64,000 bases of DNA from Prorocentrum cordatum (Eukaryota > Sar > Dinophyceae > Prorocentrales > Prorocentraceae), in assembly GCA_963575745.1 (NCBI GenBank), contig CAUYUJ010020159.1, forward strand, positions 248,001 to 312,000. The letters run 5' to 3'. Shown one piece after another: positions 9,741 through 63,470 of this stretch (its first letter is position 1; each line of letters begins with the position of its first letter). A program made the translations under genes and the position numbers. The notes beneath the pieces are model-generated. The model had not been told where the DNA came from and did not search any database. It saw nothing but the letters and a program-made list of their open reading frames with translations.

Positions 9741-9897
9741 AGGTCAGGCCTGTCGCCCCTACAAGCGAATTTTGGACGAAAGACTTAAGATACTCAAGAA
9801 ATGCTCCCAAATGGTCCAACTAGTCAAATAATCGTCACTATACTAATTTTTGTCTATTTGGGGATCTTCCTCCTGTAGAGGGACGTGCCCGACTTAA
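9741..9897 (-). mobile_element. GTCGGGC introner-like element, copy A
   Basis: The family is about 155 bp with inverted termini. Plus-strand left end: AGGTCGGGCATGTCCCCCTA then CAGGCGGATTTTGGACGA. Right end: CTCCTGTAGAGGGACAGGCC then CGACTTAA. The interior often has AAATACTC and an inverted pair around CCCCAGACTATGTTTG. No coding capacity. All copies have this orientation, so they are placed on the minus strand, where they would read 5' TTAAGTCGGGC to 3' CCCGACCYAAG. Here the 3' end reads GACCTAG. Confidence 0.8.
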
Positions 9898-11405
9898 GCA
9901 TGCAGTTCCGCTGCCGCTTGATTCCGAGAGCTGGTCGCCGTTGATGGCCACTCTCAGAGACCAAACGGCCTGTCCGCGAGGAAAGGGATCATCCCGGGGA
10001 TGTGGTCGAGAGCTCTGGGGACCATACGTGTAGAACACGCGACGCCAAAGGTCCTGGACATGGGACATCTGCCGTGCTGTTGGCCGGTACCCACAGGCCA
10101 CCGGTCAGAAAACGCGTAAGTCACTCCAGGCGATGCTTGCAACCACTGGGGCGGTGCCAAACGATCATCAAAACGCATCCGGCGTTTGCCGAGACCGTCA
10201 GACAACGAAGCAATCCTCTTAAAACGACCGCGGCCCTATGATAGAGCAGGCACGGATGACCCGGTAACCAGAGGAAGCCCGTCGTGAATGGACTGACCTC
10301 AACCTGGCTCCACGTTGAACTGAGAGTATCGGGGAGACTATAAAATCTACAATGCCGCTGGAACGTTAATCCTGTACAGAACTCTCTATGTCAGCAACAT
10401 CCGCACAATAAGAGTACGCAATGATGTGGCATGTGGCGTTCTCCGAATTAGGAGAGTGGCCCACGAAACAGACCATGAAAAGGAGGAGGACACACAAGTG
10501 GAAGAGACTCCATGTGGAGGCTGCGCAGGGAAACGAGGGGATGGAGAGACAACGCGTAATTAAACCTACGGCAAATTTCTGCCGCAACGGCGTGGGCCCT
10601 GGTCTGTGTCCTGTCACCGGGAGAACCGCTCAAACCTTAAGAGATCTCCGCTGCCAGGGCCTCCCAGAGGCCGCTTGGGCTCCTGTTTGGAACGCATACG
10701 CCCGCGCTGTGGTTGCGACGCCGCGACGCGATGGGGGGGGGGATACGGAGGGGCAGAGGTGAACCTTTCTTGCGGCCAGGGGTCTCCTTTGGGGCCCTTT
10801 TCCCAGTGGTCAAAGGAGGAGCAGCTACGGATACCGCTACGCCCCCGTCGGAATCCAGGCAAGAGGGCACCCCTGGAGAGGCTCGGGGGGTGGCGGTCTC
10901 GGCACCTCCCCGCAAAGCTGGATCAGCAAAGAAACGACACCACCCCACCTACGGCCCCGCGGGGCTCAAAAAATACCACGAAATCCCGTATACGCTACGT
11001 GGTGGTGTACGCTACGGCCTCCGATGAGCCGTGGCGCAGCGTGGAGGGCCGCAGGTGGGGTGGCGCAGTTTGTTCACTAATCGAAGAGCTCCTCTCCTGC
11101 AGCCCGTTCCCCCCCCCCCCTGTATCGCCACCCCCACGAAAAGCCAGAAGTCAAGGGCCCCCAGAAACCTCCGCGCGCTTGCCGCGGCCACCGAGTAGGA
11201 GGAAAAACGAGCAGGAGGACGAGGAGCAGGTCGAGGAGGACACAGGACTGAGTACGGGGCCCGCCAGCCTTGCCGCGGAGGCCCCGCGGCCCACCAGCCC
11301 GTCCACGTCTGTGGCGCCCGCCCCTTCTGAGGCCGAAGAAGGGCGCCGCCTCCCCCGCCCGGCGCCACTCCGCGGCCGCTGGGCGGGGGGAAACCCTCTG
11401 ACCGG
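9898..11405. other. Unassigned stretch
   Basis: No recognisable gene. Open frames at 10606-11625 (plus) and 11012-11579 (minus) are long but without a domain. A (C)n run lies at 11109-11120 and GGAGGA-type runs at 11200-11240. Confidence 0.3.
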
Positions 11406-11787
11406 GGTCAGGCATGTTCTCCTACAGGCGGGTGTTGGGAGAAACATAGAATATAGCCAAAAATTATGTTGCTCCCGTCGCACGTCAGGACCACATCCAA
11501 AAGATAATTCCGAGCACCCAGGAAAATATCGAACGAGTGTCGAAAGAGTATCGCCTCCCGGGGCCCGACGAGCGAACAAGTGTACTGAGTTGGTGCTCGA
11601 AACTTCTTCTTGTGACCAAGGCTGAAGCAGGTTGCAACATTGTAATCCTACATGCGGATGTTGGAAGAACCGTAGATAATAGCCAGAACACGCTCAAAAC
11701 CAGCCGACAGAGCACGAACCATCGCCACACGCCTACTCATGCAACCATTCTTGAACCTTCCTCCTGCAGAAGGGCATGCCCGACTCA
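11406..11787 (-). mobile_element. GTCGGGC element, copy B, interrupted
   Basis: Left end GGTCAGGCATGTTCTCCTAC and right end CTCCTGCAGAAGGGCATGCC then CGACTCA. A second, degenerate left-end-like block (CCTACATGCGGATGTTGGAA) at 11648-11667 and a foreign repeat at 11466-11640 show that the element was interrupted or partly duplicated. Confidence 0.7.
11466..11640. repeat. Dispersed 180-bp repeat, copy 1
   Basis: Shares ordered blocks with 25975-26155: TTATGTTG, CCATCGCAC-like, GGACCACATCC, AGCACCCAG, AAATATCGAA, TGGTGCTCGAAA, and GGTTGCAACAT versus GGTTGGAACAT. It lies inside copy B. I could not see inverted termini. Confidence 0.65.
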
Positions 11788-12261
11788 TTGCCAGGGGCGG
11801 AAGCCAGGGAACACAAACCTGTATATATACCCATAATGAACGGCTGGAGCCCAGTGCGGGTTTCTCTGATCGGCGTCGGACTCGAGGCCGGCGAGGGTCC
11901 CCTGGCGGCGCTCCCGGCGCCGCCCCCAGGGAGCTCCGCGAGCTCGGGAGGGGGGGCCCTGCCCTGGTCCCACAAGTCCACGCGAAACCCCCAAGCACTT
12001 CTTTTTGGGAGGATTCGTCTTTCGCCGATTCGGAAGAGAGGCAGAGACCACCGCCACCGAGATGACTAGCAAGAAAGGGGCTCCACATCCACTGTGGGAG
12101 GGGACCGAAGGTAAGAGGGCCCCACAAGAAAACTAAATCGGGATAGGGGGTATTCTCTGCAGATGTGTCAAACCTGACCGCCCAGATGTATTATCCCTGA
12201 CGCAAAGACGGGGGCCCAAGCGAGGCCACGTCTTCCCTGTGCTAAATGATCAGGGTTCGGG

Positions 12262-12426
12262 TTATGTCGGGCGTGTCCCCCATACGGGGGGATTCTGGGC
12301 GGAGAATCAAAAATACTCAAAACATGCCCCGCAAATGGGTAAACATAGTCCAAACAAATCGTCCCCAGACTATTGTTTGACTGTTTTTTTGCATATTCTT
12401 CCTGTAGAGGGACAGGCCCAGCGTAA
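12262..12426 (-). mobile_element. GTCGGGC element, copy C
   Basis: Left end TTATGTCGGGCGTGTCCCCC, interior AATCAAAAATACTCAAAACA and CCCCAGACTATTGTTTGACT, right end CTTCCTGTAGAGGGACAGGC. 165 bp. Confidence 0.8.
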
Positions 12427-12514
12427 GATTGGGGGCTAGGGGTTCCTCGACCCCAGAGCGTCGTCCTGTTCTGCGTGACGCTCGGGCGCGCCGCCGCCCA
12501 GTCCTCCTTCTCCC

Positions 12515-12600
12515 CCCCTCCTCCTGCTCCTCCTCCTCCTCCTTATCCTCCTCCTTCTCCTCCTCCTTCTCCTCCTTCTCCTCCTCCTCCTCCTCCTCCC
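12515..12600. repeat. CCT-rich microsatellite
   Basis: CTCCTCCTC runs interspersed with TTCTCC. Its frames are Ser/Pro-rich or Glu/Arg-rich artefacts. Confidence 0.9.
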
Positions 12601-13004
12601 CGACGAGTTCTCGGCGACGGTGGTCCCTGGACAACGTGCAGTCGACCCGAGGTCTATCATCGAGGTCGGTGCGGGAGGAGTGCCCTAATGTCCTTCGTGC
12701 TTATCGGACGTCCCTGTGCATCCTGGGGGGGGGGACCATGTATGATCTGTGGGATTTGGCCGACGGGGGGTCTCAGATGTTCTCGAAAGATGATTTCCTG
12801 GCCCAAGTCCGACTGTCAGACCGTGAAATGTCGGGGATCTCTGAGACCTGGCGTTCCTGGATGTGTCGGGCGCCGCGGCTGGAGCGATTTTGATCCCGGT
12901 CTTGGCCCCGCCCAATATTTCTACTCTGATCGATATGAGCACAGACGAAGGCCGCGAGCGCTCACGGCGACGAGCCCGAGACCATCGAGAACCCTCCGGT
13001 CCTA

Positions 13005-13130
13005 GAAGCCTCCCAGATGGGTTTGAAGCGAATGGGGTCGAAAGATCGCGCCGCATCGCCGATTCATCACCAATGCATCTGAGATGCATCGGCAACGTCG
13101 GCGATGCATCGGCGAAGCCGGCGTGGAGAA
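13005..13130. repeat. GATGCATCGGC palindromic repeat, copy 1
   Basis: Begins GGGGTCGAAAGATCGCGCCG and continues as overlapping ATGCATCGGC and GACGTCGGC-like steps. Same arrangement at 25587-25772 and 61672-61850. Self-complementary units imply strong secondary structure. Confidence 0.75.
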
Positions 13131-13318
13131 ATCGCTCCGCGCCTGCGATGCGGCGCGATCCTCTGGCCCCATCTCTTTAAGGCTTCGGACTGCGCACAGA
13201 CAGCACCCCCCCCGGGCAGCCACTTCCTGGCCTCAACAGGCCCCTCTGCGAAGCCAGGGGTGGTCCCGACACCTCACCCCGGGGGCGCTGAGCGCCCCAA
13301 AGCGGCGCTGGAAGCAGC

Positions 13319-13403
13319 GGAGGAGGAGGAGGAGGAGAAGGAGGAGGAGGAGGAGGAGAAGGAAGAGGAGGGAGGGAGGAGGAGGAGGGAGGAGGAGGAG
13401 CCA
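13319..13403. repeat. GGA microsatellite
   Basis: GAGGAGGAGGAGAAGG-type run of about 85 bases; Glu-rich frames are artefacts. Confidence 0.95.
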
Positions 13404-13619
13404 GGGTGTTGAGACCGCCCTAAGCTACCCGGGGGGGCCCCTGGAGGCCAGCTGCTGCTGCAGGGGGTGGCTGTCCTGCGCGCAGCCTGCAGCCCTCCGT
13501 GGGATCCAGCGCTGCAGGCAAAAGACGACACGTTGCGTACATATCACGACTGGAGCCCCTGGTACCGGGCGAACAACTAAGACGAAGCCAGGAGGAGAAC
13601 TCCATCGGGAGAGGATGGA

Positions 13620-13730
13620 TCGCGAGTCTCTGAGGTCTGGCGGCGCTGGAAGATGTCTCGGGCGCCCCGACAATCTCAGAGCGTTCCAGAACATCCTGGA
13701 ACGGGTTTGTCCTCGTCCTCTCCCCGTCCG
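13620..13730. repeat. Dispersed repeat with GATGTCTCGGGCGCC block
   Basis: The ordered blocks CTGGCGGC, GGAAGATGTCTCGGGCGCC, CAGAGCGTTCCAGAAC, CTGGAACGG and TCCTCGTC recur at 62655-62785. A shorter related piece lies at 12838-12883 (CTGGCGTTCCTGGATGTGTC). Nature unknown. Confidence 0.6.
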
Positions 13731-13783
13731 AAAACTCCCAATGCGAATCAATTGCAACGCTTGGATCCCAGGGTCACTGAGGG

Positions 13784-13976
13784 GCAACGATAGGGGGGAC
13801 TAGCAGAAAACATCGGCCTGGAATTGGCGATACATCGCCGATAGATCGGCGATAGGCCCCCGATAGCAAATCCCAATGTTCCTGGGCGGGACGGGGCTAT
13901 CAGACCCCTATCGCCGATCAATGGACGATTGGGGTTCGATGCATCCCCCGCAATGCCCATCCCCACCTATCGTATC
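13784..13976 (-). mobile_element. GCAACGATA-family element, copy 2
   Basis: Inverse copy of 5119-5319, starting GGCAACGATAGGGGG and ending CCACCTATCGTATC. The internal ATCGCCGATAGATCGGCGAT palindrome is conserved. Confidence 0.75.
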
Positions 13977-13984
13977 AGGGCGAC

Positions 13985-14140
13985 ATCTACACATATGCAC
14001 AGCTCCCTGGAAAGGCCCATCCTGAACCAAGTAGCTGTGTGTACGCCACGCCCTCCTGGCTCGGCCAGGAGGGCGTATACGTAGCTCCTGGGTTCAGCAT
14101 GGGCCTGGCCTGGGAGCAGTGGATCTGTATAGATTCGTCG
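13985..14140. repeat. Fold-back (hairpin) element
   Basis: A roughly 150-bp imperfect palindrome centred near 14060. Left arm blocks are GCACAGCTCCC, AGGCCCATCCTGAACC, GTAGCTG and CGCCCTCCTGGC. The right arm has their complements in reverse order: GCCAGGAGGGCG, TACGTAGCTC, GGTTCAGCATGGGCCT and GGGAGCAGTG. Ends next to a GTCGGGC element. Confidence 0.75.
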
Positions 14141-14177
14141 TCAGATCCTTGCCCCTCAGTCTCCAGGTCTACTCTGC

Positions 14178-14501
14178 GGTCGGGCATGTCCCCCTACAGG
14201 CGGATTTCGGAGGAAACATTAAACGTTATGAAAAGAACCAGTGATGATCATTTTTTGGTAAAATAAAGTCGTCCGCGTATTTTGTTCAACTATTTTTGAC
14301 TTTCCCAAGGCTCCCAATTTCGCGCTTCGCGCTGCGCGAAGCGCGAAGTGCGAATAACTTCGCGCTCTCCCGCCGCCTCCCAGGGGAGAAGAGGAGGACG
14401 AGGAGGAATCGGAGCCGAACCGCGAAGCGCCAAGCGAGAATAACTTCGCGTCCTCAAGGGCGCCCTTGTTTCCATCCTGTAGAGGGACACGCCCGACGCA
14501 A
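14178..14501 (-). mobile_element. GTCGGGC element, copy D, with internal insertion
   Basis: Left end GGTCGGGCATGTCCCCCTAC and right end CATCCTGTAGAGGGACACGC then CCGACGCAAG. The extra length comes from a TTCGCGC repeat at 14318-14460. On the minus strand the 3' end reads CCGACCGCAG followed by AGTAGACC. Confidence 0.8.
14318..14460. repeat. TTCGCGC hairpin plus GGA repeat, copy 1
   Basis: TTCGCGCTTCGCGCTGCGCG folds on GAAGCGCGAA. It is followed by TAACTTCGCGCTCTCCCGCC, a short GGA run and GAACCGCGAAGCGCC. The same order occurs at 57948-58112, with a partial copy at 60770-60836. All three sit inside or beside GTCGGGC elements. Confidence 0.65.
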
Positions 14502-14502
14502 G

Positions 14503-14706
14503 CCTACTCGGGCGCCATCTGGGAAGCTCCGACTCCTGGACTTGCGGTCGCCCGGGCCGCGGCCCCCGCCCTCCGGGCCGAACGCGCTGGACCTGGACTT
14601 GCGGCTCTCCGCCAGGGGGCTCCCCTCGGGGCTCCCGAAGTGATGCGTGCGCTTCCCGTTGGCGTGCGACCGGATGGTGATCCGCCGCCGTTCCTGCACC
14701 GGCTGG
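14503..14706 (-). CDS. Candidate host exon, Ser/Arg/Gly-rich
   Basis: A minus-strand frame stays open from about 14706 (after TTACGCCAG, a possible acceptor) to the border of element D. It encodes a hydrophilic segment rich in Arg, Ser, Gly and His (for example QERRRITIRSHANGKRTHHF). The composition is coding-like but no domain is recognised. The plus strand is also open here, so this is weak. It may be an exon preceding element D as an intron; reading phase across D was not resolved. Confidence 0.22.
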
Positions 14707-15097
14707 CGTAAGGAACCGAACTTTTTACACCGATGCTATTTTCTGGTCCCGCTTTGAGATTCGCACAAGAAAACGAATTCTGGTGCATACAGCATCCTGG
14801 TGTATACATGTTTTGTTGTTTCCACGGGAAAACGGGGAACAAAGTATACACCACACCACCCCGACGTCGTCCCCGACCCTCGAAAAAGTCCTGGCATTGA
14901 AAACCAGCCCGCCACGGGTAATGTATACGTTCCAAATTCCGTGGCGTGCGTGCGGGGCCCGACGGCACAGGCTGGCCGCCCCAGCCACTCCTGCCACGAA
15001 GGTCTTCGTGCAGTGAAGAGCGGCATCTCTCCTTCTCCCGCCCTCCGCTGCCGCTCTCCGGCTCCTTCCCCGCTCTTGCAGCTGGACAGTACGGTGG

Positions 15098-15268
15098 AGG
15101 CCAGTCCACAAGAAACCTTCCTCGAGAAGCCCAACCCCGAGACCCAAGGCCGTCCATCGACTTTTGGTGTGGGAACGTCGCGCTTTCCACAGCAGAGCCA
15201 TCGAAACCCAAGACACCCAGGGAACCCTGGAGGCGAGCAGGGTGTTTCCTGGCATGCCCCCACGGTAG
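15098..15268. repeat. Dispersed 170-bp repeat, copy 1
   Basis: Ordered blocks CACAAGAAA, TCGAAACCCAAGA, CCTGGAGGCGA and CAGGGTGTTTCCTGGCAT match 23889-24065. It abuts GTCGGGC copy E. No inverted termini were seen. Confidence 0.65.
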
Positions 15269-15272
15269 TATG

Positions 15273-15582
15273 AGGTCGGGCATCTCCCTCTACAAGAGGT
15301 TTTTGGGCGACAACTGAAACATATCCCACAAATGCCCAAACGTACTCAAAGGTGGCTGAACAAAACTCGTCCCAAGACTATTTCTTTCATGCGAACCCTA
15401 CCCCTACCTCCCGCGATTTCCGAGGGAGAGGGTAGGGCTCACTTCGTTCGGGAGCTCCCGAGCGAAGTGAACCCCACCCTCCCCCTGAGAAATCGTGGGG
15501 GGCAGGGGCAGGCTTCGCATGTGGCCCCCTATTCTTGACGATTTGGAGATATTCCGCGTGTAGAGGGACAGGCCCGACTCAA
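15273..15582 (-). mobile_element. GTCGGGC element, copy E, with palindromic insertion
   Basis: Left AGGTCGGGCATCTCCCTCTA and right GTGTAGAGGGACAGGCCCGA then CTCAA. The interior is split by the palindrome at 15387-15523. On the minus strand it starts GTTGAGTCGGGCC. Confidence 0.78.
15387..15523. repeat. Long palindrome nested in copy E
   Basis: A roughly 135-bp fold-back centred near 15456. Left arm: CATGCGAACCCTACCCCTAC, CCGCGATTTC, GAGGGTAGGGCTCACTTCG and CGGGAGC. Right arm: GCTCCCG, CGAAGTGAACCCCACCCTC, GAAATCGTGG, GGCAGGGG and GCTTCGCATG. A likely fold-back transposable element; its insertion explains copy E's length. Confidence 0.8.
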
Positions 15583-16732: not shown

Positions 16733-16888
16733 AGGTTGGGCCTGTCCCCCTACAGGCGGCTTTTGGGCGACACATATAAAAATCAAACAATACACCCAGC
16801 ATTATCAACAAATTAACCGCAACATCCTGCCCCGACCATGGCTTGACCATTCTTGAATGGCCCTCCTGTCGAGGGACAGGCCCGACTT
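16733..16888 (-). mobile_element. GTCGGGC element, copy F
   Basis: AGGTTGGGCCTGTCCCCCTA to CTCCTGTCGAGGGACAGGCC then CGACTT; 156 bp. The minus-strand start reads GAGCAAGTCGGGCC, a GCAAGT-type possible donor. Confidence 0.8.
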
Positions 16889-17231: not shown

Positions 17232-17382
17232 AGGTCGGGCCTGCCCCCCCCACAGGGGGATTTTGGACGAGACATGGCGCAGAATCGAAAGATGTGCAGA
17301 ACCTGCTCCAAATGCTCAAACCGTCGTCCGTGGACACTATGTTTGGATGTGTTCCCCCTGTGGATGGACGGGCCCGACGTAA
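17232..17382 (-). mobile_element. GTCGGGC element, copy G
   Basis: AGGTCGGGCCTGCCCCCCCC to CCCCCTGTGGATGGACGGGC then CCGACGTAAG; 151 bp. More diverged than most copies but termini and length are conserved. Confidence 0.75.
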
Positions 17383-19352: not shown

Positions 19353-19507
19353 GGGTCGGGCATGTCCCCCTACAGGCGGATTGTGGACGAAAAATCAAAA
19401 ATACTCCGGACACGTTCCAGAAAGGCCAACAATAGTCAAACAAGCGTCCCCAAACGATTTTTAGATTATTTTGAAAATTCCCTCTGTAGAGGGGCAGGCC
19501 CGACTTA
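19353..19507 (-). mobile_element. GTCGGGC element, copy H
   Basis: GGGTCGGGCATGTCCCCCTA to CCTCTGTAGAGGGGCAGGCC then CGACTTAA; 155 bp, close to consensus. On the minus strand it is entered through GGGTTAAGTCGGGCC and left through GCCCGACCCAAG. Confidence 0.85.
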
Positions 19508-21967: not shown

Positions 21968-22173
21968 AGGTCGGGCATGTCCCCCTACAGGCAGATGTTG
22001 GACGATGTTTTTCCTTTTTAGATATAATTACATAGAATACATAATTAATCACACAAGCCCAAACAGTCAAACAATGAATTCATAATGGTCAAAGATAGTC
22101 AGAACATCGTCCGTAGACTATTTTTGGACTACTTGTTGAAACTCCTCCTGTAGAGGGACACGCCCGACTTTAA
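21968..22173 (-). mobile_element. GTCGGGC element, copy I
   Basis: AGGTCGGGCATGTCCCCCTA to CTCCTGTAGAGGGACACGCC then CGACTTTAA; 206 bp, longer by an AT-rich internal stretch. The minus-strand 3' end reads CCGACCTAG. Confidence 0.83.
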
Positions 22174-25778: not shown

Positions 25779-25942
25779 AGGTCGGGCATGTCCCCTACAG
25801 GCGGATTATGGGCACACGCAAGAAAGATAGTGCAACAAGAACTCCAAAAAATGCAATACTAGCTGTTTTGTGAATCGCCCCCAGACTATGTTTGAAGTAT
25901 GTTCATGACTACTCCTCTGGTAGAGGGACATGCCCGACTTAA
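25779..25942 (-). mobile_element. GTCGGGC element, copy J
   Basis: AGGTCGGGCATGTCCCCTAC to CTCTGGTAGAGGGACATGCC then CGACTTAA; 164 bp. Internal CCCCCAGACTATGTTTGAAG as in other copies. Confidence 0.85.
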
Positions 25943-30206: not shown

Positions 30207-30314
30207 AAAATCCTTCTTCGATCGTAGCCGGTAAGGGCCCCCAAAGGCCGAAAATGGCGGACAACCTCCAGCCGTGATTTTTTAAAGAGCGAGGGGGTCT
30301 GGGGAGACCACAAA

Positions 30315-30456
30315 GTACAGATACCGCTTCCTCCCCTGGCCTCTCCCGGGGTGCGTTCTGACCTGGATTTCGCAGCGGATCACGCGGTGGCGACGATGGC
30401 CGCCAAGGAGGCCAACAAAAACGAGAAAACGGGGGACTGGTAGCGGTATGGGTACG
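30315..30456. mobile_element. GGTATCCATACCGCTACC family, copy 2
   Basis: GTACAGATACCGCTTCCTCC at the left, GACTGGTAGCGGTATGGGTA at the right. Interior CCCGGGGTGCGTTCTGACCT and GGCGACGATGGCC match 4025-4164. Confidence 0.65.
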
Positions 30457-30515: not shown

Positions 30516-30671
30516 AGGTCGGGCATGTTCTCCTACAGGCAGATTTTGGAGGAAGAACTGAACTCACAAAAAAATAATCGGAAATAATCAAAAAATACTT
30601 CAAACATCGCCCCGAACCTATCTGTGGACTATTCGGGAATATTCCTCCTGTAAAACGACAGGCCGACATAA
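30516..30671 (-). mobile_element. GTCGGGC element, copy K
   Basis: AGGTCGGGCATGTTCTCCTA to CTCCTGTAAAACGACAGGCC then GACATAA; 156 bp. Lies upstream (minus strand) of the exon fragment 30462-30515. Confidence 0.82.
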
Positions 30672-30705
30672 CTCACATGAGCGCAACAAACAGAAAATAA
30701 AGCAA

Positions 30706-30773
30706 AAATCGTCCGCGTACTATGTTCTGACTATTTGAAGGTTCCTCCTGTAGAGGGGCAGGCCCGACATAAA
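30706..30773 (-). mobile_element. GTCGGGC element, right-end fragment
   Basis: Only the right half is present: CGTCCGCGTACTATGTTCTG, then CTCCTGTAGAGGGGCAGGCC, CGACATAA. It directly borders the second exon fragment. Confidence 0.75.
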
Positions 30774-30831: not shown

Positions 30832-30913
30832 ACGTCGGACAGATACTCCAACAATCGCCCCCAGACTATGTTTGGACTGTTTGTGCATACTCTTCCTGTA
30901 GAGAGACAGACTG
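30832..30913 (-). mobile_element. GTCGGGC element, copy L, internally deleted
   Basis: ACGTCGGACAGATACTCC joins CCCCCAGACTATGTTTGGAC and CTTCCTGTAGAGAGACAGAC. About half the usual length. Confidence 0.65.
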
Positions 30914-31084: not shown

Positions 31085-31235
31085 TCGATCGTCGCCGCAG
31101 GTCCTCCAACTCGAGGCGCTCCTTCCGGGCCTGCTCCTCCAGAGCCCGCTGGCGTTGCTGGTCTTCCTCCTGCTGCTTGCGCCGCCGGGCCTCCCTCTCC
31201 TCGAGCCGCCGCCTCTTCTCGTCCTCGGGGAGGAG
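31085..31235 (-). CDS. Candidate exon: Glu/Arg/Gln coiled-coil segment
   Basis: The minus-strand frame reads EDEKRRRLEEREARRRKQQE, then EDQQRQRALEEQARKERLEL, then EDLRRRSTTEHF. This charged helical sequence has regular Leu spacing and varied codons, unlike the simple GGA repeat that precedes it on the minus strand. It suggests an exon of a coiled-coil protein rather than microsatellite. Two truncated duplicates lie at 30462-30515 and 30777-30831. It could be the same gene as the zinc-finger exons at 27.0 and 24.2 kb. Exon borders are not clear. Confidence 0.42.
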
Positions 31236-31370
31236 GAGGAGGAGGAGGAGGAGGAGGAGGAGGAGGAGGAGGACGAGGAGGGGGAGGAGCGGAAGAGGAG
31301 GAGGAGGAGGAGGAAGAGGAAAAGGAGGAGGAAAAGGAGCAGGAGGAGGAGGAAAAGGAGGAGGATACGA
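31236..31370. repeat. GGA microsatellite
   Basis: GGAGGAGGAGG run with AGGAAAAGG variants; Leu-, Ser- or Glu-rich frames are artefacts. Confidence 0.95.
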
Positions 31371-32399
31371 CGCTGGCTGGCTGACGCCGCGCTCCGAGGT
31401 CAAGCCGCGGGCACCAGGCGTGCACAGGCGAACGGGCAGCCTGAGCGGCCACCCGAGGTGCCAAGAAAGACGGTGGCCCCCGTCCGAGAAACACGATCTC
31501 GGAGCCCAGCAGGCACCAAATAAAGAGGACAAGGAAAACAAGAGGATGAAGGTCCGCGGGGAGCACACCAGCAAGGGTGCTCCACTCTCGCGACCCTAAT
31601 CTCTGGACTCGAGACGATATCGTGAAGATCGGTTCGCTGGGAGCCTGACCCAATACGTTTCTGGGTCGGCATCATGTACAGGACGAGGCGCACGGATCCT
31701 GCGAGAATCCTGTCCGCCCTCGTCCCCAGGGTGATACCCTGCCAAAAGCTGTTTTCGGTTCCGAAAGGCCCGTTCCGAATGCCGAAATGCAGGGTCGGTG
31801 GACGAACATCCTACCAACAAATGTCCTGCCGTGCAAGTGGTGAAAACCCACAAGGAACGCGAAGGCAAACGTGCCCCGAGGAAACACAGAGACGATACCC
31901 CCTGGCCGCGGACGCGGGAACGGGCCCCGTTTCTGGCATGACACGGTCAGGCGCCACTGTGGCGGCCATGGTACGCCTGTCCCTGCGATGGCCGACAGTT
32001 TTCCAACGCTTATCAGGCGAAACGCGGGGCCCTCGCGATCTGGAATCCCAAGATCCCTGATCGCAAGGTCTCTGTGCTTTGAGGCGCCATCCCTAACCGA
32101 GACGATCGGTTCGAAGCTGACCCGAGGACGAACGTGGCGCTCGGGCCCACTACTCGGGGAGAGGCTGCGCTGGCGTCGTATACCAAGGGAAAACGGCGCC
32201 GCCTCCTCGGGCCTGAGAGTCCCTTCCCGAGATTCACACGACCGAGCGACAGCAGAGGAAAAAAAAAGGTGGTCACAGCAGGCAGCGATGCCAGGACCAC
32301 GGCCGCCATGACTCGGCCTACCTACACTGTCCTGGCCGCCCGCGGCGTCGCCAGGAATGCAGGGGGCGGAGGCAGACGCGGTCAAGGCCGCAGCCTTGG
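31371..32399. other. Unassigned region downstream of LINE-B
   Basis: A 367-codon minus-strand frame (31672-32775) spans much of it and extends into the LINE-B end. It includes CRCQFCKKGS but no domain I can name, and a plus-strand frame is open over the same bases. It may be LINE-B tail or chance in GC-rich DNA. Confidence 0.25.
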
Positions 32400-36468: not shown

Positions 36469-38253
36469 TCACGGCCTGGGTCTCCTCTGGCACGTTCGAA
36501 CTGCGGCTCGTCGTCGTCGTCGTCGCAGACGTCGGACTTGATCTGGGACGAGAACCGTAGAAGAGGTTGTGGGCCCTTGAGAACATTTACTTGCTGAGCC
36601 CTCACCCTTGGGCCCACCGACGCACTCGCCGCGTGGTGGCTCCTGGGAAGAAACTCGAGGACGACCTCGGGCTCTTTCGTGACCGAAATCACTCGCCACC
36701 CAATAACCCATATTAGAAAAATTAGCCGTTTGGGGGTCGCGGTATGCGCCGTGAGGGATGGCGACCATTCGGGCATTCAGGCGCTCAGGCCGTCTGGGTG
36801 TGTCAAGCAGGTCAGGGCCGATGTCCCAGTCGCCGCCGACGATGAAGGGCAGCTTGTCGTGGGCCAAGCAAATGCCGAGGGTGCGAACCCGTTGGGGGTT
36901 GGCAGCCCCAAGCTTGAGGCCCTGCCCCAGGTAGATTGACGCGGCAATGCATCCGTGCCTCAAGCCGCCCTCGACCAGCACGGTCACCACGTGCTCAAGG
37001 TCGATCACGTGCGTCTCACAATAGGACGAGAGCAGCGTGGCGCCGATGTGGGTTCGGGCGAAGATGCCCACTCCAGCGAAGTTGGTGCCGGCGTCGCTAA
37101 CCAAGCAGGGCGAGACGAAAGGCTTCCATCTATGCGCGGCAGCCCATTCCTGGGCACGCGCCAGCTGGTCACCGCGAAGCTTAAACTCCTGGGCGTACAC
37201 CACCTGATAGTGAAGGGCGTGCTCGAGGGAGTCCTTGAACTGTGGCCACCCGCTGCCGTTGCAGATGGCGATTCGAAAGTCCGTGCGTTTGCCACCCTTG
37301 GGAGCTCTTCGCGACTTACGAGGTCCCGGTGCTTTCGAGCTGCACGCAGCAACGACTGCCCGCTCACTGGTCGAGAGGTCACCTGGAGCCAGCGTTGCTG
37401 CGACCCCGAGGGCCCCTTTGCACCATGAGCGGGTGCCTGGCGACGAAAGATCCGGACCTGGTTCGACGGTGCCTCGGGCCTCGGATGAAGCAGGCTGGGG
37501 CTCCAGACCGCAGGGCTCGACATCAATGATGATGGCCTCGCCACCTCGACCAATTGCCGGTTCCTCGACCACGTCTGGGTAGTGACGGGAAATCAGCCTC
37601 ATCTTCTTGGCAGCTGGGGTCGGCTGAATCATGCAGGTGTCGGGCTGTGGAAGCTGGAAGGTGTAGACCACGTTGCAGACGTCCGCAGCGCTGGCGTCCC
37701 GCTGAGCTGGTAGCGGAGACGCCATCTGCACATGTGCGGCAAGCACATGGGCGCCACCGCCGCGCGGGGTCCGTCGCTGCCACAGCCGCCCGCGCCCTGC
37801 CGCGGCGCCCGCTCCGAACCAGGCGGCATTGACCACCTCCACGTCTGGGGCCCCTGGAACGTCACACCCGCGTGGAGGAGAGTGATCACCGCGCCGACTC
37901 GCCTGCCGCAACAGGGCGCCAACCTGCCCGTCGGCAGTTCCGCGCGGAGGAAAGAGCCCCGTGGCAACATGCGGCGTGAAAGAGAACCCCGCCCCGACAT
38001 CGCCCGACGCGGGCGACCCCGGGACGGCGCCCACGTTGGCAGCGGGTGAGGCAGCAACAGCCTCAGGCTGAACCTGCTGCAGTCCAGCAGGGGGCGATGC
38101 AGGGGCCCGCTGCCGCAGCATCTGATCGATCGCGCTGTTACTCGATCTCTGATTCGGTGTAGCGGCCCCAGACGTTCGGATACGATCTTCCCGAATGGCG
38201 CGTTCAGCGCCATGAAGCTGCGCGCGTGGCTGATCAATCTGAATCTGCAGCAA
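36469..38253 (-). CDS. LINE-B endonuclease ORF (594 codons open)
   Basis: Longest plausible real ORF in the window. Residues 1 to about 320 are Pro/Ala/Gly/Arg-rich and low complexity. An APE-type endonuclease domain follows: ICNGSGW near 330-336, YAQEFKL near 353-359 with the likely catalytic Glu, GGDWDIGPDLL near 470-482, and YWVASDFGHE near 525-535. This domain nicks target DNA to prime reverse transcription. In the family, the GDWN motif ends in Asn and the last motif is usually SDH; here they read GDWD and SDFGH, so activity is doubtful. The 3' end runs into a poly-Arg frame from a GTC repeat. Start chosen as the first Met; the true N-terminus may lie further upstream. Confidence 0.65.
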   Translation of the reverse strand: MLQIQIDQPRAQLHGAERAIREDRIRTSGAATPNQRSSNSAIDQMLRQRAPASPPAGLQQVQPEAVAASPAANVGAVPGSPASGDVGAGFSFTPHVATGLFPPRGTADGQVGALLRQASRRGDHSPPRGCDVPGAPDVEVVNAAWFGAGAAAGRGRLWQRRTPRGGGAHVLAAHVQMASPLPAQRDASAADVCNVVYTFQLPQPDTCMIQPTPAAKKMRLISRHYPDVVEEPAIGRGGEAIIIDVEPCGLEPQPASSEARGTVEPGPDLSSPGTRSWCKGALGVAATLAPGDLSTSERAVVAACSSKAPGPRKSRRAPKGGKRTDFRIAICNGSGWPQFKDSLEHALHYQVVYAQEFKLRGDQLARAQEWAAAHRWKPFVSPCLVSDAGTNFAGVGIFARTHIGATLLSSYCETHVIDLEHVVTVLVEGGLRHGCIAASIYLGQGLKLGAANPQRVRTLGICLAHDKLPFIVGGDWDIGPDLLDTPRRPERLNARMVAIPHGAYRDPQTANFSNMGYWVASDFGHERARGRPRVSSQEPPRGECVGGPKGEGSASKCSQGPTTSSTVLVPDQVRRLRRRRRRAAVRTCQRRPRP

Positions 38254-38879
38254 GGAGGTTACATCGCCCTGATCAGGGGTAGGAGGAGGAGGAGGAATGC
38301 AGCAAGGAGACAGCGTCTGCTCGCAGACACAGCTCTACCACCAGGGAGAAAGAATAATGCCCAGCCAGCCACTCCCCTCCCAGGGGTCGGCTAGACTTGG
38401 GGCGCTCGCCGCCCAGCAAGCTGTTGAGCACCCTCAGCGCGATCGGGGCCAAGTCTTCGGGGTCAGGGCAGGGGGCCCCGAAGGCCTTCCCCACCCTAGC
38501 GGACCCGTAAGCCCCGCGCCGCCGAAACCAGACGACCGCCCCTTATGGCGGTAACGTCGTATCCCCCAGGCGCAGAGAGCCTGAGCGCACCCGCCTCGGG
38601 CTCCCCGGAGCCCAAGTCCACCCCAACAGTGGCCCCAGCATCGCCCCCGCGGGCAGGCGCAGGCCCCCCCCCCAGAGGACCCGGCAGGGTCCAGCCCAAA
38701 CGAAGCCACGGGCGCCGACGGCACCCCAGGCCCCCCCCCCCCGACACGACGCCATCCCCGACCCCCCAGCGCCCACCGACCCCGCAGACCCAACAGGCAG
38801 GCGGTTGGTGGCGGCAGCCTCCAGGACCATCGCCTGCAAGGCGTGGATGGCCGAAGGGTTGCAGCGCCTGTCCGCGCCG

Positions 38880-44189: not shown

Positions 44190-44210
44190 CTTGAGCCAAA
44201 ATGGCCACGG
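44190..44210 (-). other. Spliced-leader relic
   Basis: Read on the minus strand this is CCGTG followed by GCCATTTTGGCTCAAG, identical to the conserved 21-base core of the dinoflagellate spliced leader except for G in place of A at base 5. It sits exactly at the 5' border of LINE-A, next to a GGA microsatellite, about 185 bases before the ORF1 start. Known biology: dinoflagellate mRNAs receive this leader by trans-splicing, and genomic relics mark reinserted cDNA. This is not an SL RNA gene: no Sm-site or snRNA-like downstream region follows. Confidence 0.85.
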
Positions 44211-44325
44211 AGGGGGAGGAGGAGGAGGAGGAGGAGGAGGAGGAGGAGGAGGAGGAAGAGGAAAATGAGAAAGGGGAGGAGGAGGAGGAGAAGGAGGAGG
44301 AGGAGGAGAAGGAGGAGGAAGCCGT
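44211..44325. repeat. GGA microsatellite at LINE-A 5' border
   Basis: GAGGAGGAGGAGGAGG run with AGGAAAATGAG variants; poly-Glu or poly-Leu frames are artefacts. Confidence 0.95.
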
Positions 44326-44404
44326 GCGCGTGCCGCAAGAAAATCACGGCAATGCCGCTCTCCCCAAGGGCTTGTCGACTTTCCGTCAATCGCCTTGTGG
44401 GGAT

Positions 44405-53972: not shown

Positions 53973-54254
53973 CAGCTTGCGCCAACAGCTTGCGTTCCAA
54001 CGCTCCTCGCCAGCGAAGGCGCGCTCCGCGACAGCAGCGGTGCGCTGTGCGACCGGCCGCCGTCCATGCCTTCCACGAGGGCGGCGCCCGAGGCCGCGCG
54101 AGACCCGCGAGGCCGCGCGAGACCCGCCGCCAGGCGTCCCTTCCGGGCCCCCGCGAGTGGGGGGGCCGGAGGTGCGCGGCCACGCGGCGCGGCGGGGGGC
54201 GGGCGCCTCCTCTGGGCCGAAGCGTCGCTGGCTGGGCAGGGGGCAATGGCGGAG

Positions 54255-54680
54255 GAGGGGGAGGAGGAGGAGGAGGAGAGGAGGAGAGGAGGAGGAGGAG
54301 GAGGAGGAGGAGGAGGAGGAGGAGGAGGAGGGGGGAGGAGGAGGAGGAGGAGGAGGAGGAGGAGGAGGAGTGCTTCTCATTGAGAAGGTGAGGGGGGTCT
54401 CCGCGTGAGGTCGAGCAGTCCTCAGCATCATCTGGCCAGGCCAAACGAGGAGGCCGTGGTCACCGCAGACGTGCCTCCACAGCGGGGCAACACTTGGCCT
54501 CTGCGCGCAAAGCTCGACTCGGCATGCAGGCACGTTACCAATAGGAGGAGGAGGAGGAGGAGGAGGAGGAGGAGGAGGAGGAGAAGGGGGGGAGGAGGAG
54601 GATGAGGTGGAGCAGGAGGAGGAGGAGGAGGAGGAGGAGGAGGAGGAGGAGGAGAAGGGGGAGGAGGAGGAGGAGGAGGA
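54255..54680. repeat. Two GGA microsatellites
   Basis: GGAGGAGGAGG runs at 54255-54372 and 54541-54680, separated by about 170 unique bases. Gly-, Arg- and Glu-rich frames are artefacts. Confidence 0.96.
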
Positions 54681-54749
54681 CCAGTGTAAACCCAAGGGCC
54701 AGCAACGATGTTGGAATAAACCATCCCTCCAAGCTGCCTCCTCAAAGGG

Positions 54750-57791: not shown

Positions 57792-57924
57792 GGGTCGGGC
57801 GTGTCCCCCTGCAGACGGATCATAGTCAAGAACAAAAAAAACAAACACGTACAAACGTCCCCAGACATTGTTTTAAATCTATATATATATACATGTCTCC
57901 TGTAGAGGGACAGGCCCGACTTAA
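57792..57924 (-). mobile_element. GTCGGGC element, copy M
   Basis: GGGTCGGGCGTGTCCCCCTG to CTCCTGTAGAGGGACAGGCC then CGACTTAA; 133 bp. The minus-strand start reads AGGTTTAAGTCGGGCC and its end reads CCGACCCAG. Confidence 0.83.
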
Positions 57925-57947
57925 ACCTAAACGGTGCTCAACTTCGC

Positions 57948-58112: not shown

Positions 58113-60769
58113 AACAACCTCGGGCCCTCGCGGGCGCCCCTGCCCCATGGTCGTCGCCTCCCCCCTGGACTGGGTGCTCGTCCTGGGGACATTCCTGGAG
58201 CCACTCGCTCCACTCATGCGTCGATGCTTAGTCGAAAGTCCATCGCCTTGAATCGAACTCGAGTCGAGCTAAAGAGTCCCTTGTGTGATCCCAAGCACCG
58301 AACAACAGAGACGTAACATCTCAGAAAAGCACGACAGGAGCCCTAGACCACGTGCTTCTGCGTCATTCTTCGAGCGGGTTCGATCTGCGAGGGTCCCAGG
58401 CCCGGAACCAAAGAAAACAACGCCCGGACCTGCGGGTCGAACTAGAGTCGAACAGATCCGCCAGGTGGGCCCCAGGAAGGTCCCTAGAACAAACTTCTTC
58501 GTCGGCAGCGAGGCGGGACGATCCGCTCCAGCGTGGCAGCGATGCAGGGGCACTACAGAGCGAATTGGCCGGCCTCTGACTCAGACGCCCCCGAGGAGTC
58601 CTCGAGCCCCGAGAGGGGGGCGGGGTCGTGGCGCGCGACGCGCGATTACCCTCGTGGGACCCCGCAGGTGGGCCGCCCTGGCGACGCCCTTTTCCCTCAA
58701 ACGGGGAGGGGGGGCCCCTGGTCAGGGGGGAAGGGGCCCTGGCCCTCCCCCCCGACGTGCCCACAGGCGCGACGTCCAAGATCTCACGGCACAGAAGAAG
58801 GGCGAGGACAGGAACATAATGATGTCCTGATCGGATTGGCTCAGGCTCCGTATCCAGGACTTCTGGAGGCTTCTTGGAGCTCGTGCTGGACAGCAGGCAA
58901 TATTGGAAACCTTGGCACGTATCATGATCATGACTTCTTCTCTGACAGGGGGGAAGTCGGAGGTGGGAAAAAAGGTGCGAGGAGAGAGGAGGGAGGAAAA
59001 GGGAGGAGGAGGGGAGGCAGGTAGATGAGGGCAGAAAGGGGTTCGAGCGGGATGAGCAGCAGGAGGAGACAGGAGAGACGAGGGTCATGTGACAAAGAGG
59101 AGAGGGAAGGGCAATGGAGAAGGAAGGAGGAGAAGGAATAACGCAAGACCACCTCCTGACGACCAATGCAGCCAGCAGCAACATGGCGCTGGCTCAGATG
59201 GCGCACGGCGCTGCAGCCTCAAGCGACGCCTCCTGTCCTTTCAGCTCTTTCCAGAGCTTGCCAACATCCTTCGCGAGCGCAATTTAACGACGAATGTAAA
59301 GGATCATGTCGAGCGCATGGACGCAAGACCACAACAAAACACAAACAACCACCATTCACACCAACAGCGCACGATACAGCACACCGCGCAGCGCACACAA
59401 CCTCAGCACAACGCGACACACTATACAAGCACGGGCACAGACGAACGCGCACGCGCGCACACTATTCACACACACACACACACACACGCACAAACACATC
59501 TGCGCTCACGCGCGCACACACATCCGCGCTGTTCCCCATGTTGCTCCGTGTCCCTGGTGAGTTGGACAGGAAGGATTGGGCGGTAGAACGGAGAAGATCC
59601 AATAGATAATGAAGGGGGAGGCGTGGAAATGACTCTGGGAGCGCAGGAACTCGAGAACCATCAGCAATGTGCAGATGTCGTATGGGGCTAGAAGAGGAAG
59701 TGGAGCAGAGTGAAACAGGATCGCAGGCGCGTGCGATAACAACTAAGAGGGGACAGCTCGAGGGGAGCACATGCTCCGACAGGAAGGTACGATCCCATAC
59801 CTCTGAGGCTTCGATGCTTCCGCACCTTGGGTCCCCGACCTCCCGACCACTTCACGGTAAGAGCTTGTTCGTCTCGTGTACTCTTTTCACGGCCCAGTGA
59901 CCCAGAAACGGCCCCCGAATGCCGAAAACGGCAGACACACACACCATCTGGCGCGCTGTGGTGCCACTAGCGGCAGGGGGAGGAAGAGGGAGGAAGAGAG
60001 GAGGAGGACGAGGAGAAAGGAGAAAGAGAAAAAGAACCCCCGAAGGATCCCCCTGGTCTCCCGTAATTTCGCGAAATCTCCTCCTCCTCCTCCTCCTCCT
60101 CGTCCTCCTCCTCCACCTCCCAGCCAAAAACCGATCAGAACTGGTCTCCGTACTGTTTCGATCTGCTTGCAGCCGTGGCGATGACCAGGGGTGACGAAGG
60201 CCACCGAAGGCCAGATGACGAGGAACGAGGATAATGAGGAGAAAGGCTCCCGAAGCCGTAGCGACAGCATGCAATGCTTAGGCAATGCTGGCTGCTGGCT
60301 CGGGATGCACCCTGCCATTTGAGAATGCATCGTGCGATCCGGCCATACTTCAGGGACCTGCGCTGACACATCTGACCCTCCTCCGACGCAAAATTCGCTT
60401 AGAACGGCTCGCCCAGCCCCGCGCAGGGTCCCAGATCGAGTTCCGACTGTCCCAGAGTCCCCAAACATCTGTTGTTGTGATTTGTTTGCAACTTCGCTCC
60501 ACACAAGTTTAGAAATCTTGCTGGAGACCAGCTCTTCACCTCGAGTTGCTTGTTTTTGAGTTTGCTGGGGCACAGTGAGGGCCATCATAACCCGAACACC
60601 GCAAGAGCAATAACTACCAAAACCAGAAACGCTCGTCGTGCGTCTGCTCATGACTCAGGAACGCTTCCAACTGCCGAGAACCGCGAACAAAAATCTGATC
60701 TCAATTTCGACCCCGCACCCACACGACGAGGAGGGAAACAACCGGGGGAGGGTGGGGAAAAATGGGGCG
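58113..60769. other. Long unassigned stretch
   Basis: Mostly unique. A minus-strand frame at 59203-59290 reads ALAKDVGKLWKELKGQEASL then EAAAPCAI and stop, coding-like but isolated. A CA repeat lies at 59458-59520 and CCT runs at 60080-60118. Frames on the minus strand 59887-60651 show no known domain. Confidence 0.3.
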
Positions 60770-60836
60770 CAGAACTTCGCGCTTCGCGCTTCGCGCGAAG
60801 CGTGGGTCACATCGCGCTCTCGCGCCGGCCGCCAGG
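60770..60836. repeat. TTCGCGC hairpin, partial copy 3
   Basis: AACTTCGCGCTTCGCGCTTC then GCGCGAAGCG and TCGCGCTCTCGCGCCG; lacks the GGA run. Immediately precedes GTCGGGC copy N. Confidence 0.6.
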
Positions 60837-60839
60837 GTT

Positions 60840-61234
60840 AGGTCGGGCAGGTCCTCCTGCAGGCGGATTTTGGACGACATATGAAGCATGGTAAAAACAT
60901 GTTCCAACATAGCGACAAATAGTAGAACAATCATCACAAGACATTTTTTACTCTTTTTCGCCTATCTATGCTTGCACTGAAGGGGTCCTAACAGAAATTG
61001 AAAGATTTGGCCAAAACTTCCACCGATGCTGGTAGCCGGCTGGGCTCCCGGGTCCCCGGTTCCGCGTTCCCGGGTTCCTGGTCATTGGTTCCGGGCCGAT
61101 TTCGGTGGGTTCTGGGTTCCCGGTTTCCCGGACGATCTCCTTATCGATCTCTTTATCGATCCCATTTCGAGCCATCCACTGATTGGGGCTTTTCTCTGGT
61201 GGAATTGCTCCTGCAGAAGGACATGCCCAACTTG
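60840..61234 (-). mobile_element. GTCGGGC element, copy N, with insertion
   Basis: AGGTCGGGCAGGTCCTCCTG to GCTCCTGCAGAAGGACATGC then CCAACTTGAG. 395 bp. The centre has TTCCCGGGTTCC-type repeats (61050-61130) not seen in other copies. Confidence 0.72.
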
Positions 61235-61451
61235 AGAGTAGAAGAGGATGAGAGAGGCTCAGAAGTCGGGCGAAGGCTGGCAGACCCGTGGCTGCTAAAA
61301 CGGAGCTCTGGGAAATTGCTCGTTTTCTTCTTCTTCTTCTGGGAAGCAGCCTGTTTACTAGATTATGGTGCACTGAGCTTTATTCTGGGAGTTTGTTTTG
61401 TTCTTCCGGGAAGACCGTTCCATAAACATAGCAGCCACGGACTTTTTGGAG
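61235..61451. other. Unassigned stretch
   Basis: Includes a TTCTTCTTCTTC run near 61325. No gene. Confidence 0.35.
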
Positions 61452-61640
61452 TCCCGAAGCGGTGCGGTGACAGACCGTGCGGTGACCTCGAAATCCTCCA
61501 AGACCTCACCGCACGGTCCGTCACCGCACAGTCTTGGGACCCCGGATGCCCCTGTCGCCCGAGACATCGTCGGAGAACGACCCGAGTCCCAAAACCGTGC
61601 GGTGACCCCGAATCCCCACCGAGTCACCGCACGGTGTGGC
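61452..61640. repeat. Clustered CCGTGCGGTGA / TCACCGCACGG inverted motifs
   Basis: The 10-11-base motif occurs direct at about 61453, 61470 and 61596, and inverted at about 61505, 61519 and 61624. The terminal pair 61452-61475 and 61624-61637 could form TIRs of a roughly 185-bp element. Confidence 0.7.
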
Positions 61641-61671
61641 CACCACCCCGTTTGGGGGCCCCGAATAGAAG

Positions 61672-61850
61672 CCTCCTAGATGGGGTCCGAGTAGATGGGG
61701 TCGGAAGATCGCGCCGCCTCGCCGATACATCGGCGATGTATCAGCGATGTATCGGTGATGCACCGGCGATGTATCGTCGACGTCGGCGATGCATCGGCGA
61801 CGTCGACGTGAAGCAAATTGGGCTCCACATCGAGCCGCATCTACGATGCA
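61672..61850. repeat. GATGCATCGGC palindromic repeat, copy 3
   Basis: CCTAGATGGGGTCCGAGTAG, GGAAGATCGCGCCGC, then GATACATCGGCGATGTATCA steps and GTCGACGTCGGCGATGCATC. Bracketed by a direct repeat GTGTGG(C/T)CACCACCCCGT then TTGGGGGCCCCGA (61633-61663 and 61852-61883). Confidence 0.85.
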
Positions 61851-62034
61851 TCGGTGTGGTCACCACCCCGTTTGGGGGCCCCGAGACTTGCCAGCCTTCG
61901 CCCTGCTGCCGAGGGGCACCGGGGAGCCGAGCCGCGAGGAGCGCGAGGCGCTTCTTGCGCCCCCGAGGGCGCCCCCCTCGAGGAGGGGTGCAACGTGGGT
62001 GCCACCTGCAGGGCCCCCCGAGGGCCCCTCGAGG

Positions 62035-62106
62035 GCTCCTCCTCCTCCTCCTCCTCCTCCTCCTCCTCCTCCTCTTCCCTCTTCATCCTCCTCCTCCTCC
62101 TCCTCC
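62035..62106. repeat. CCT microsatellite
   Basis: TCCTCCTCCTCCTCC run interrupted once by TTCCCTCTTCA. Confidence 0.95.
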
Positions 62107-62211
62107 TGCAGCCCTCGACCCCCATCATGTGGGGATGCTGCCGTCCAGATGGGGCCCGGGCCCGAGCAGCTGGTGTCAGAGGCAGGGCTCGACCAAAAAG
62201 GTGCTTGTCTT

Positions 62212-62402
62212 ATGTCGGGCGTGTCCCCCTACAGGAGGATTCTCGACGAAACATTAAACATACCCCAAACATACTCCAAAAAGGCCAAACAAATACTCCA
62301 AAAATAGTCCCCAGACTATTTTTGGAGTATGTTTTGACTATTTTGGGGGTATTTTTTATTTTTCATCGAAACTCCCCCTGTAGTGGGACACGCCCGACTT
62401 AA
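62212..62402 (-). mobile_element. GTCGGGC element, copy O
   Basis: ATGTCGGGCGTGTCCCCCTA to CCCCCTGTAGTGGGACACGC then CCGACTTAA; 191 bp. It contains an internal inverted pair around CCAAAAATAGTCCCCAGACT / ATTTTTGGAGTAT. On the minus strand it ends GCCCGACATAAG. Confidence 0.85.
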
Positions 62403-62654
62403 TGGTTGTCGTTGTCGTTGTGCTGTCGAATCTCCCTCGCTCTGTCTCCAATCCGCCTCTGCTGCAAAACGAAGTCGAAACGAACACGGCCCAAGATAAT
62501 CATCGGCCTGCACGTCGCGCCGCATCGCCGACATACAGAGGATGCGGCGCCTTCCTCCGAGCCCATCTGACTCGACCCCGTCTCGGAGGCCTGGAATGTG
62601 CTGCTCCCCCACCACAGAGTAAGACCAAGCGAGGGCGAGGATAAGGTCGGGTGA

Positions 62655-62785
62655 GGAAAAATCGAGAATATCTGATAGCTGGCGGCTCTGGAAAATGTCT
62701 CGGGCGCCGCGGCCTTCACAGAGCGTTCCAGAACGCTCTGACAGCCTTCCGGAACGCCCTGGAACGGATTTATCCTCGTCGCAGC
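62655..62785. repeat. Dispersed repeat with AATGTCTCGGGCGCC block, copy 2
   Basis: GGCGGCTCTGGAAAATGTCT, CGGGCGCC, CAGAGCGTTCCAGAACG, CTGGAACGG and TCCTCGTC, matching 13620-13730. Ends at copy P. Confidence 0.6.
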
Positions 62786-62788
62786 GTT

Positions 62789-63470
62789 AGGTCGGGCCTG
62801 TCCACCTACAGGGGGGTTTTGGACGACAAATGAAAAATATTCAAAAATTACCCTGGCGACGTACCAAACCCCTGCGCAATGCGGGGCATGAGTAGCTTGA
62901 GAGACGTTATACGGAAGTGATGACGTGACATGGGCTCATATATTTCTGCAAGTGGCATTCGTGAGGCTCGCAGCTCTTCAAGGATTGCGAGGTCCCGCTC
63001 AGATCTGCGTGGTGCCTCACTCCGCTGGACCCGCCACCAGCCTTTGAAAGTAGCGACAATTTCGCAGATCGCAGCCCCCCAGGCACGGCGAGGTCTTGCT
63101 CAGATCCGCGCGGTGCCTCACTCCGCTGGACCCACCAGCAGCCCTCGAAAGTGGCGACAGTTTCGCAGATCGCAGCCCCCCAGAAACGGCGAGGTCTTGC
63201 TCAGATCCGCGCGGTGCCTCGCTCCGCTGGACCCACCAGTAACCCTCGAAAGTGGCGACAGTTTCGCAGGTCGCAGCCCCCCAGGGACGGCGACCATAGG
63301 GGGGGGGCGGGAGGAGGACGCGACCACACCCCTCTATACAAAACGAATACTCAACCAAGGAGGGTTGGGAGATACTCCCAAATGGTAAACAACAATTCAG
63401 GCAATAGTCCCCAGACTATTCGTTTGCTATATTTGAGAATTCTCCCTGTAGAGGGACAGGTCCGACTTAA
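62789..63470 (-). mobile_element. GTCGGGC element, copy P, split by tandem repeat
   Basis: Left AGGTCGGGCCTGTCCACCTA then CAGGGGGGTTTTGGACGACA. Right ATAGTCCCCAGACTATTCGT, then CTCCCTGTAGAGGGACAGGT, CCGACTTAA. The centre (about 62860-63340) is foreign and holds a 101-bp tandem repeat. Two different copies joined by deletion is an alternative. Confidence 0.65.
62975..63296. repeat. 101-bp tandem repeat, three units
   Basis: GCGAGGTCTTGCTCAGATCC, GGTGCCTCACTCCGCTGGAC and TTCGCAGATCGCAGCCCCCC recur at 62990, 63091 and 63192. The last two units are almost identical. Confidence 0.95.

Follow-up and report, generated by a model that had tools for sequence, protein, structure and literature searches.

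A short DNA transposon family of Prorocentrum cordatum that can make introns and shares one orientation over long domains

Over a 64,000-nucleotide stretch of the genome of the bloom-forming alga Prorocentrum cordatum (contig CAUYUJ010020159.1, positions 248,001 to 312,000; the whole stretch is called the window), copies of a short element all face the same way. We find that this element is a non-autonomous, cut-and-paste DNA transposon, a miniature inverted-repeat transposable element (MITE), that its family can make introns, as it did in a kinesin gene, and that its copies fall into strong orientation domains. The window copies seem to lie in non-coding DNA and yet are uniformly oriented, which is the puzzle addressed here. 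Our overall reading, which we hold to be probable although far from certain, is that of an oriented MITE family that occasionally makes introns and whose orientation tracks the transcription of gene arrays.

Structure of the element

The consensus of the element, read on its sense strand (the minus strand of the window) and built from 36 rows of ordinary length in which two copies had been fetched twice, is 160 bp long and runs from TTAAGTCGGGCCTGTCCCTCTACAGG to CCTGTAGGGGGACATGCCCGACCTAA. It carries terminal inverted repeats with the termini TTAAGTCGGGC...GCCCGACCTAA, and therefore TTAAG and part of AGG belong to the element ends themselves. Directly outside these ends lies a target site duplication with a fixed length of 8 bp and the consensus nnCTAGnn. 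Among 72 distinct two-armed copies, sampled from the contig and elsewhere, the two duplicates agree in at least 6 of 8 positions in 51 copies, in at least 7 in 41, and in all 8 in 21; 14 of 40 stretches were omitted because no second arm lay within reach. Of the 52 copies of an earlier set, which counted two copies twice, 26 agreed in at least 7 of 8 positions, as compared to 1.6% when the flanks were re-paired. Such a duplication is characteristic of cut-and-paste DNA transposons, and the ordinary 160-bp copies are much too short to code for a transposase. The 8-bp duplication, short terminal inverted repeats and missing coding capacity are likewise features of hAT-like MITEs; the TTAAG ends presumably do not fit the hAT terminal consensus.

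Searching the 4.128-Gb assembly (21,875 contigs) for the inner arm pattern with up to two mismatches retrieved 60,769 forward and 60,101 reverse matches, with 0 and 1 for the reversed control. Since the two arm consensuses differ at two positions, these are counts of arms, and one copy may count twice; the copy number in the genome is in the tens of thousands. Three copies of 2-2.6 kb (L010:720-2831, L015:858-3503 and L015:3675-5734) have the ends of the element around tandem-repeat interiors, whose unit in two cases measures about 77 bp; two of their 8-bp duplications are perfect and one matches in 7 of 8 positions.

In the window, 20 arm matches were found at up to three mismatches, compared with none in 100 shuffles, and 15 two-ended copies could be extracted with their flanks. 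A profile derived from the element detected 21 pieces, the best strand being minus for each, and added to the 15 copies a partial copy (30691-30772) and a fragment (30840-30909). The original prediction, made from the letters of the window, of an element of about 155 bp with all copies in one orientation is therefore borne out. Its tally of sixteen two-ended copies plus a fragment came close without being exact; of its size and ends, the typical length of 150-160 bp holds, but cores range from 127 to 676 bp and the borders have to be redrawn at the termini given above, with the duplication outside them. The copies are as follows (window coordinates):

9741..9893, minus strand: element copy, core between terminal arms (arm search and profile)
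11407..11784, minus strand: element copy, 378 bp, interrupted by a copy of the short repeat F5 at 11513-11640
12266..12422, minus strand: element copy, imperfect 8-bp duplication CCCCAATC/CCCGAACC
14179..14497, minus strand: element copy, 319 bp, inner insertion, duplication GAGTAGGC/GAGTAGAC
15275..15578, minus strand: element copy, 304 bp, inner insertion
16735..16886, minus strand: element copy, duplication GTCCAGGA/GTTTAGGA
17234..17378, minus strand: element copy
19355..19504, minus strand: element copy, duplication GGCTTGGG/GGCTGGGG
21970..22168, minus strand: element copy, duplication ACCGAAGT/ACCTAAGT
25781..25938, minus strand: element copy
30518..30768, minus strand: element copy with part of a second copy (30691-30772)
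30840..30909, minus strand: element fragment (profile)
57794..57920, minus strand: element copy, duplication GTTTAGGT/GTTCAGGT
60842..61231, minus strand: element copy, 390 bp
62214..62398, minus strand: element copy, duplication GACAACCA/GACAAGCA
62791..63466, minus strand: element copy, 676 bp, inner insertion, duplication CGCTAGGA/CGCTGCGA

A kinesin intron made by the element

Pfam searches served to locate exons of kinesin, myosin-head and dynein genes, and we compared 46 stretches lying between matched exons. The element was present in one of them, at the kinesin locus L053; it was not found in two longer stretches between myosin exons nor in eight dynein stretches. At L053 the copy coincides exactly with a GA-AG intron of 169 bp, measured from duplication start to duplication start, with the borders GTGCAG|GATTCATTCGGG...CTGTGTGCAG|GATGCC, so that both splice sites lie within the target duplication. 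Read through without splicing, the stretch meets stops in each of the three sense frames, and removal of the element leaves the open kinesin frame VCQVDIHEVQDAAGVSSFQCPGATRR. The predicted spliced product, VCQVDIHEVQDAAGVSSF, can be compared with VCQVDVHEVQDPAGASSF of the paralogue L066, which offers a clean empty site: it reads VCQVDVHEVQDPAGASSFRCPGATRR, with a single uninterrupted GTGCAGGA. The filled site of L053 and the empty site of L066 therefore show that the insertion made the intron, with the splice dinucleotides inside the duplicated target, and they represent the two states of one intron-gain event within one genome. We take the element to be one that folds into a hairpin; as RNA, the kinesin copy has a hairpin z of -6.9.

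In 31 of the 46 stretches all three sense frames contain stops. In the other 15, among them L050, L052, L073, L076, L127, L128, L129 and L132, one sense frame or more is free of stops, and an intron is therefore not strictly required there. A second, strongly palindromic hairpin family (GGTCCGCGCGGATTTCTTGGATCGGCGC...) was seen between kinesin, myosin and dynein exons (L049, L050, L052, L054, L066, L073, L076 and L127); a sense frame is open in 5 of these 8 stretches, so that not all of them need be introns.

Orientation of the copies

In the surrounding 264 kb (contig 148001-412000), 56 merged element loci were found, 52 with minus and 4 with plus as the best strand. All four plus-strand loci lie outside the window, and two of them are one tandem duplicate. 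The 12 copies in this region with a duplication matching in at least 7 of 8 positions are all on the minus strand and every duplication is different, which means that they are independent insertions.

Agreement in strand was also seen among the 100 perfect arms listed, where pairs on the same contig that agree outnumber those that disagree by 8:0 below 20 kb, by 38:10 between 20 and 100 kb and by 48:21 between 100 and 300 kb; the ratio is 31:35 from 300 kb to 1 Mb and 13:16 at larger distances. Neighbouring arms within that list agree by 40:15, a value reached in 53 of 5000 shuffles. Agreement up to about 300 kb fits the unidirectional gene clusters described for dinoflagellates (PMC11453091).

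Could the shared orientation be an artefact of one ancestral block that duplicated? One tandem duplication does exist, at about 347-353 and 353-359 kb of the contig. However, the different target duplications already contradict such an origin, many of the self-matches outside the tandem block have the length of the element, and strand agreement extends to other contigs; we therefore consider this explanation highly improbable. The tandem duplication itself (347.4-353.1 and 353.2-358.9 kb; L022 and L023) measures about 5.8 kb, is 97% identical between its copies over a 3.5-kb stretch, and holds element copies of both orientations.

Most sampled copies do not resemble introns

The original prediction read the element as an introner. 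In its classical form this would make every window copy a spliced intron between minus-strand exons, the orientation being kept since only one orientation splices. The exact intron in the kinesin gene, with its empty paralogous site, speaks for this reading, as does the position of several other families of the contig between myosin and dynein exons.

The flanks and borders of the copies speak against it. A codon score was trained on exon ends of kinesin and myosin genes. For held-out dynein exon ends it gave +0.49 in sense (15/16 positive) and +0.17 in antisense (12/16), and it therefore separates coding from non-coding DNA better than strand from strand. For 50 element copies the mean flank scores were -0.20 upstream and -0.11 downstream in sense, and -0.18 and -0.06 in antisense, with both flanks positive in 4 copies in sense and in 8 in antisense. 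Coding-like flanks on both sides were found in none of the 12 window copies scored (of the 15 two-ended ones), and the length of open frames over the joined flanks did not separate sense from antisense.

Donor-like starts and AG-like borders, to which the original prediction had pointed, turned out to be no more frequent than chance: a length-neutral cut from G[TCA] to AG is available in 18 of the 72 copies in sense and 10 in antisense, where 23% are expected on either strand, and 54 copies have no GT/GC/GA...AG cut of this kind. Among the 41 copies with a duplication matching in at least 7 of 8 positions the cuts lean to sense (12 vs 4). An enrichment of splice sites at the borders was considered and rejected (AG only at duplication positions 5-6 in 17/43 copies, CT only at positions 3-4 in 11/43, p = 0.34); this set counted two copies twice, and the analysis was recomputed on the 72 distinct copies.

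Non-coding flank scores and chance-level cuts therefore indicate that most copies, taken on their own, do not resemble introns. Together with the observation that copies adjoin or nest in other repeats, this leaves the classical introner as an unlikely description of the window, although it holds for the kinesin copy. Judged by their flanks, most of the sampled copies, those in the window included, would lie in non-coding DNA, either within long introns or between genes.

Other short repeats and the transcribed strand

Bias in orientation extends beyond this element. Pairs of repeats of up to 320 bp on the contig were counted after masking the element and omitting one copy of the tandem duplication: 95 are direct, 15 inverted and 11 ambiguous. 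The families of these repeats are direct only in 26 cases, inverted only in 8, and mixed or ambiguous in 5; for the 18 families with at least three loci these numbers are 13, 1 and 4. The bias is weaker in repeats of more than 320 bp, with 94 direct, 45 inverted and 17 ambiguous pairs. Several of the short families have inverted ends, and families nest in or adjoin one another. Since 13 of 18 other short families are co-oriented, orientation seems to follow transcription even where the copies are not introns themselves.

Genes of known direction point to the minus strand of the contig as the probable transcribed strand, with exceptions. Of the 46 stretches between exons, 42 were oriented by their gene and compared with this strand, omitting L056, L060, L062 and L065, which were read as intronless: 11 matched in sense only, one in antisense only (L080), 20 on both strands and 10 not at all, many of the both-strand matches being palindromic hairpins. 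By our reading, non-palindromic elements that fill short exon gaps are in sense in L053, L055, L071, L128, L129, L132 and L134; L128, L129 and L132 are likely introns, though not forced to be, one sense frame being open throughout. Three of the 13 co-oriented families (F7, F10 and F13) lie in known genes the same way round as on the contig, and F5 lies the other way round. The shared orientation mostly agrees with the one in which elements of the same kinds lie between exons of known genes, with L080 and F5 as exceptions.

Two candidate signals were dropped. A poly(A) signal behind the orientation (AATAAA, 13 on the contig minus strand vs 45) is not specific, because several other A-rich hexamers are skewed alike; the acceptor-like TTGCAGG (48 vs 14) lies in a repeat unit inside two long copies. 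In contig 148001-412000, several A-rich hexamers are skewed to the plus strand, and T exceeds A on the minus strand in 7 of 8 33-kb bins.

Discussion

We propose that a transposase acting in trans would paste the element into nnCTAGnn targets, duplicating 8 bp. Where the element inserts into an exon at a target reading ...AG|G[A/C/T], both splice sites can come from the duplicated target; splicing may then take out the copy as an intron of about 168 bp and leave the message as it was, as predicted for the kinesin gene. Most other copies would land in non-coding DNA, often nested with further families of this kind, and their shared orientation would follow the direction in which a long gene array is transcribed, here probably the minus strand. 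As the cause we prefer selection: copies facing the opposite way may disturb the processing of pre-mRNA and be lost, while those facing this way are tolerated.

Precedent for selection of this kind, by RNA processing against one orientation, comes from mammalian introns, where the biased orientation of retroelements relative to transcription has been attributed to it (PMC1794541, PMC3517506); by analogy it may act here, although in our case the elements are short DNA transposons, biased 52:4 on one contig of a dinoflagellate.

Several points weigh against our reading. The clean intron case is limited to one, L053, whose splicing is predicted from the sequence. No named gene was found in the window, where transcription of the minus strand is what we infer from genes elsewhere; L069 carries F5 between two myosin exons in the orientation opposite to that on the contig. 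Finally, AATAAA occurs in 1 of 36 copies on either strand, and we found no signal that would explain why the opposite orientation should be harmful.

A bolder explanation than selection, which we regard as possible but rather doubtful, is that polarity is set at insertion and not by splicing. The transposition complex would fix the orientation by the direction of transcription or replication, in neutral non-coding DNA as well, and several unrelated short DNA transposon families would insert as that direction dictates. Such a process could account for a strong bias in copies that are mostly neither flanked by exons nor competent for splicing, for the 13 of 18 families that share the bias, for its decay over the distance expected of strand domains, and for the weaker bias of the longer repeats. 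Against it, the preferred target is a palindrome that shows no significant polarity at any duplication position for which there are enough cases to compare (smallest p 0.096), and we know of no cut-and-paste transposase whose insertion fixes orientation. If it were true, introners would be the visible tip of a general process of oriented insertion. Selection by splicing and oriented insertion are two ideas usually merged; the present data separate them and make both testable. They also suggest that elements of the introner class can stay strongly oriented in non-coding DNA, where the orientation cannot be explained by splicing of the copy itself. Oriented copies of this class in non-coding DNA were not found described in titles and abstract openings of the introner and MITE literature; we claim no priority.

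Introns of P. cordatum CCMP1329 (G+C content 59.7%, compared to 60.7% in the window; mean intron 4,709 bp) are enriched in introner elements, and they use GC (51%), GT (25%) and GA (24%) donors and, in 80%, AGG acceptors (PMC10666404). Our element resembles the dinoflagellate introners (PMC11453091, PMC10666404), which are short inverted-repeat elements in many intron-enriched families, with GA/GC/GT donors and AG|G acceptors, for which a nature as non-autonomous DNA transposons has been proposed. Unlike them, most copies sampled here do not look like introns and are nevertheless oriented, and the excerpts on dinoflagellate introners hold no match for an 8-bp nnCTAGnn duplication that gives both splice sites. 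The insertion site provides both splice sites for introners of Florenciella, as it does for the kinesin copy; an example from Aureococcus shares the 8-bp duplication but has splice sites of its own and lengthens the message by 12 bp, whereas the kinesin copy is length-neutral (PMC9860276). Introner copies have also been recovered in intergenic regions (PMC9860276).

Further features of the window

The window also holds copies of three other co-oriented short families:

12092..12261, minus strand: F4 copy, adjoining an element copy
15078..15268, minus strand: F1 copy (28 direct and 0 inverted pairs in 264 kb)
30300..30455, minus strand: F10 copy (family also between dynein exons at L129 and L132)

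A filter on open reading frame composition returned nothing at its first setting and was then relaxed. One of ten open reading frames in the window had a Pfam match (Exo_endo_phos, weak and below the cut-off), and two further frames of the contig had no Pfam match over the cut-off. The frame with the weak endonuclease/exonuclease/phosphatase match encodes 621 amino acids on the minus strand (36469-38334) and is possibly part of a retroelement. Long CCT/GGA repeat tracts occupy 9284-9541, 31196-31386, 44200-44336 and 54233-54698.

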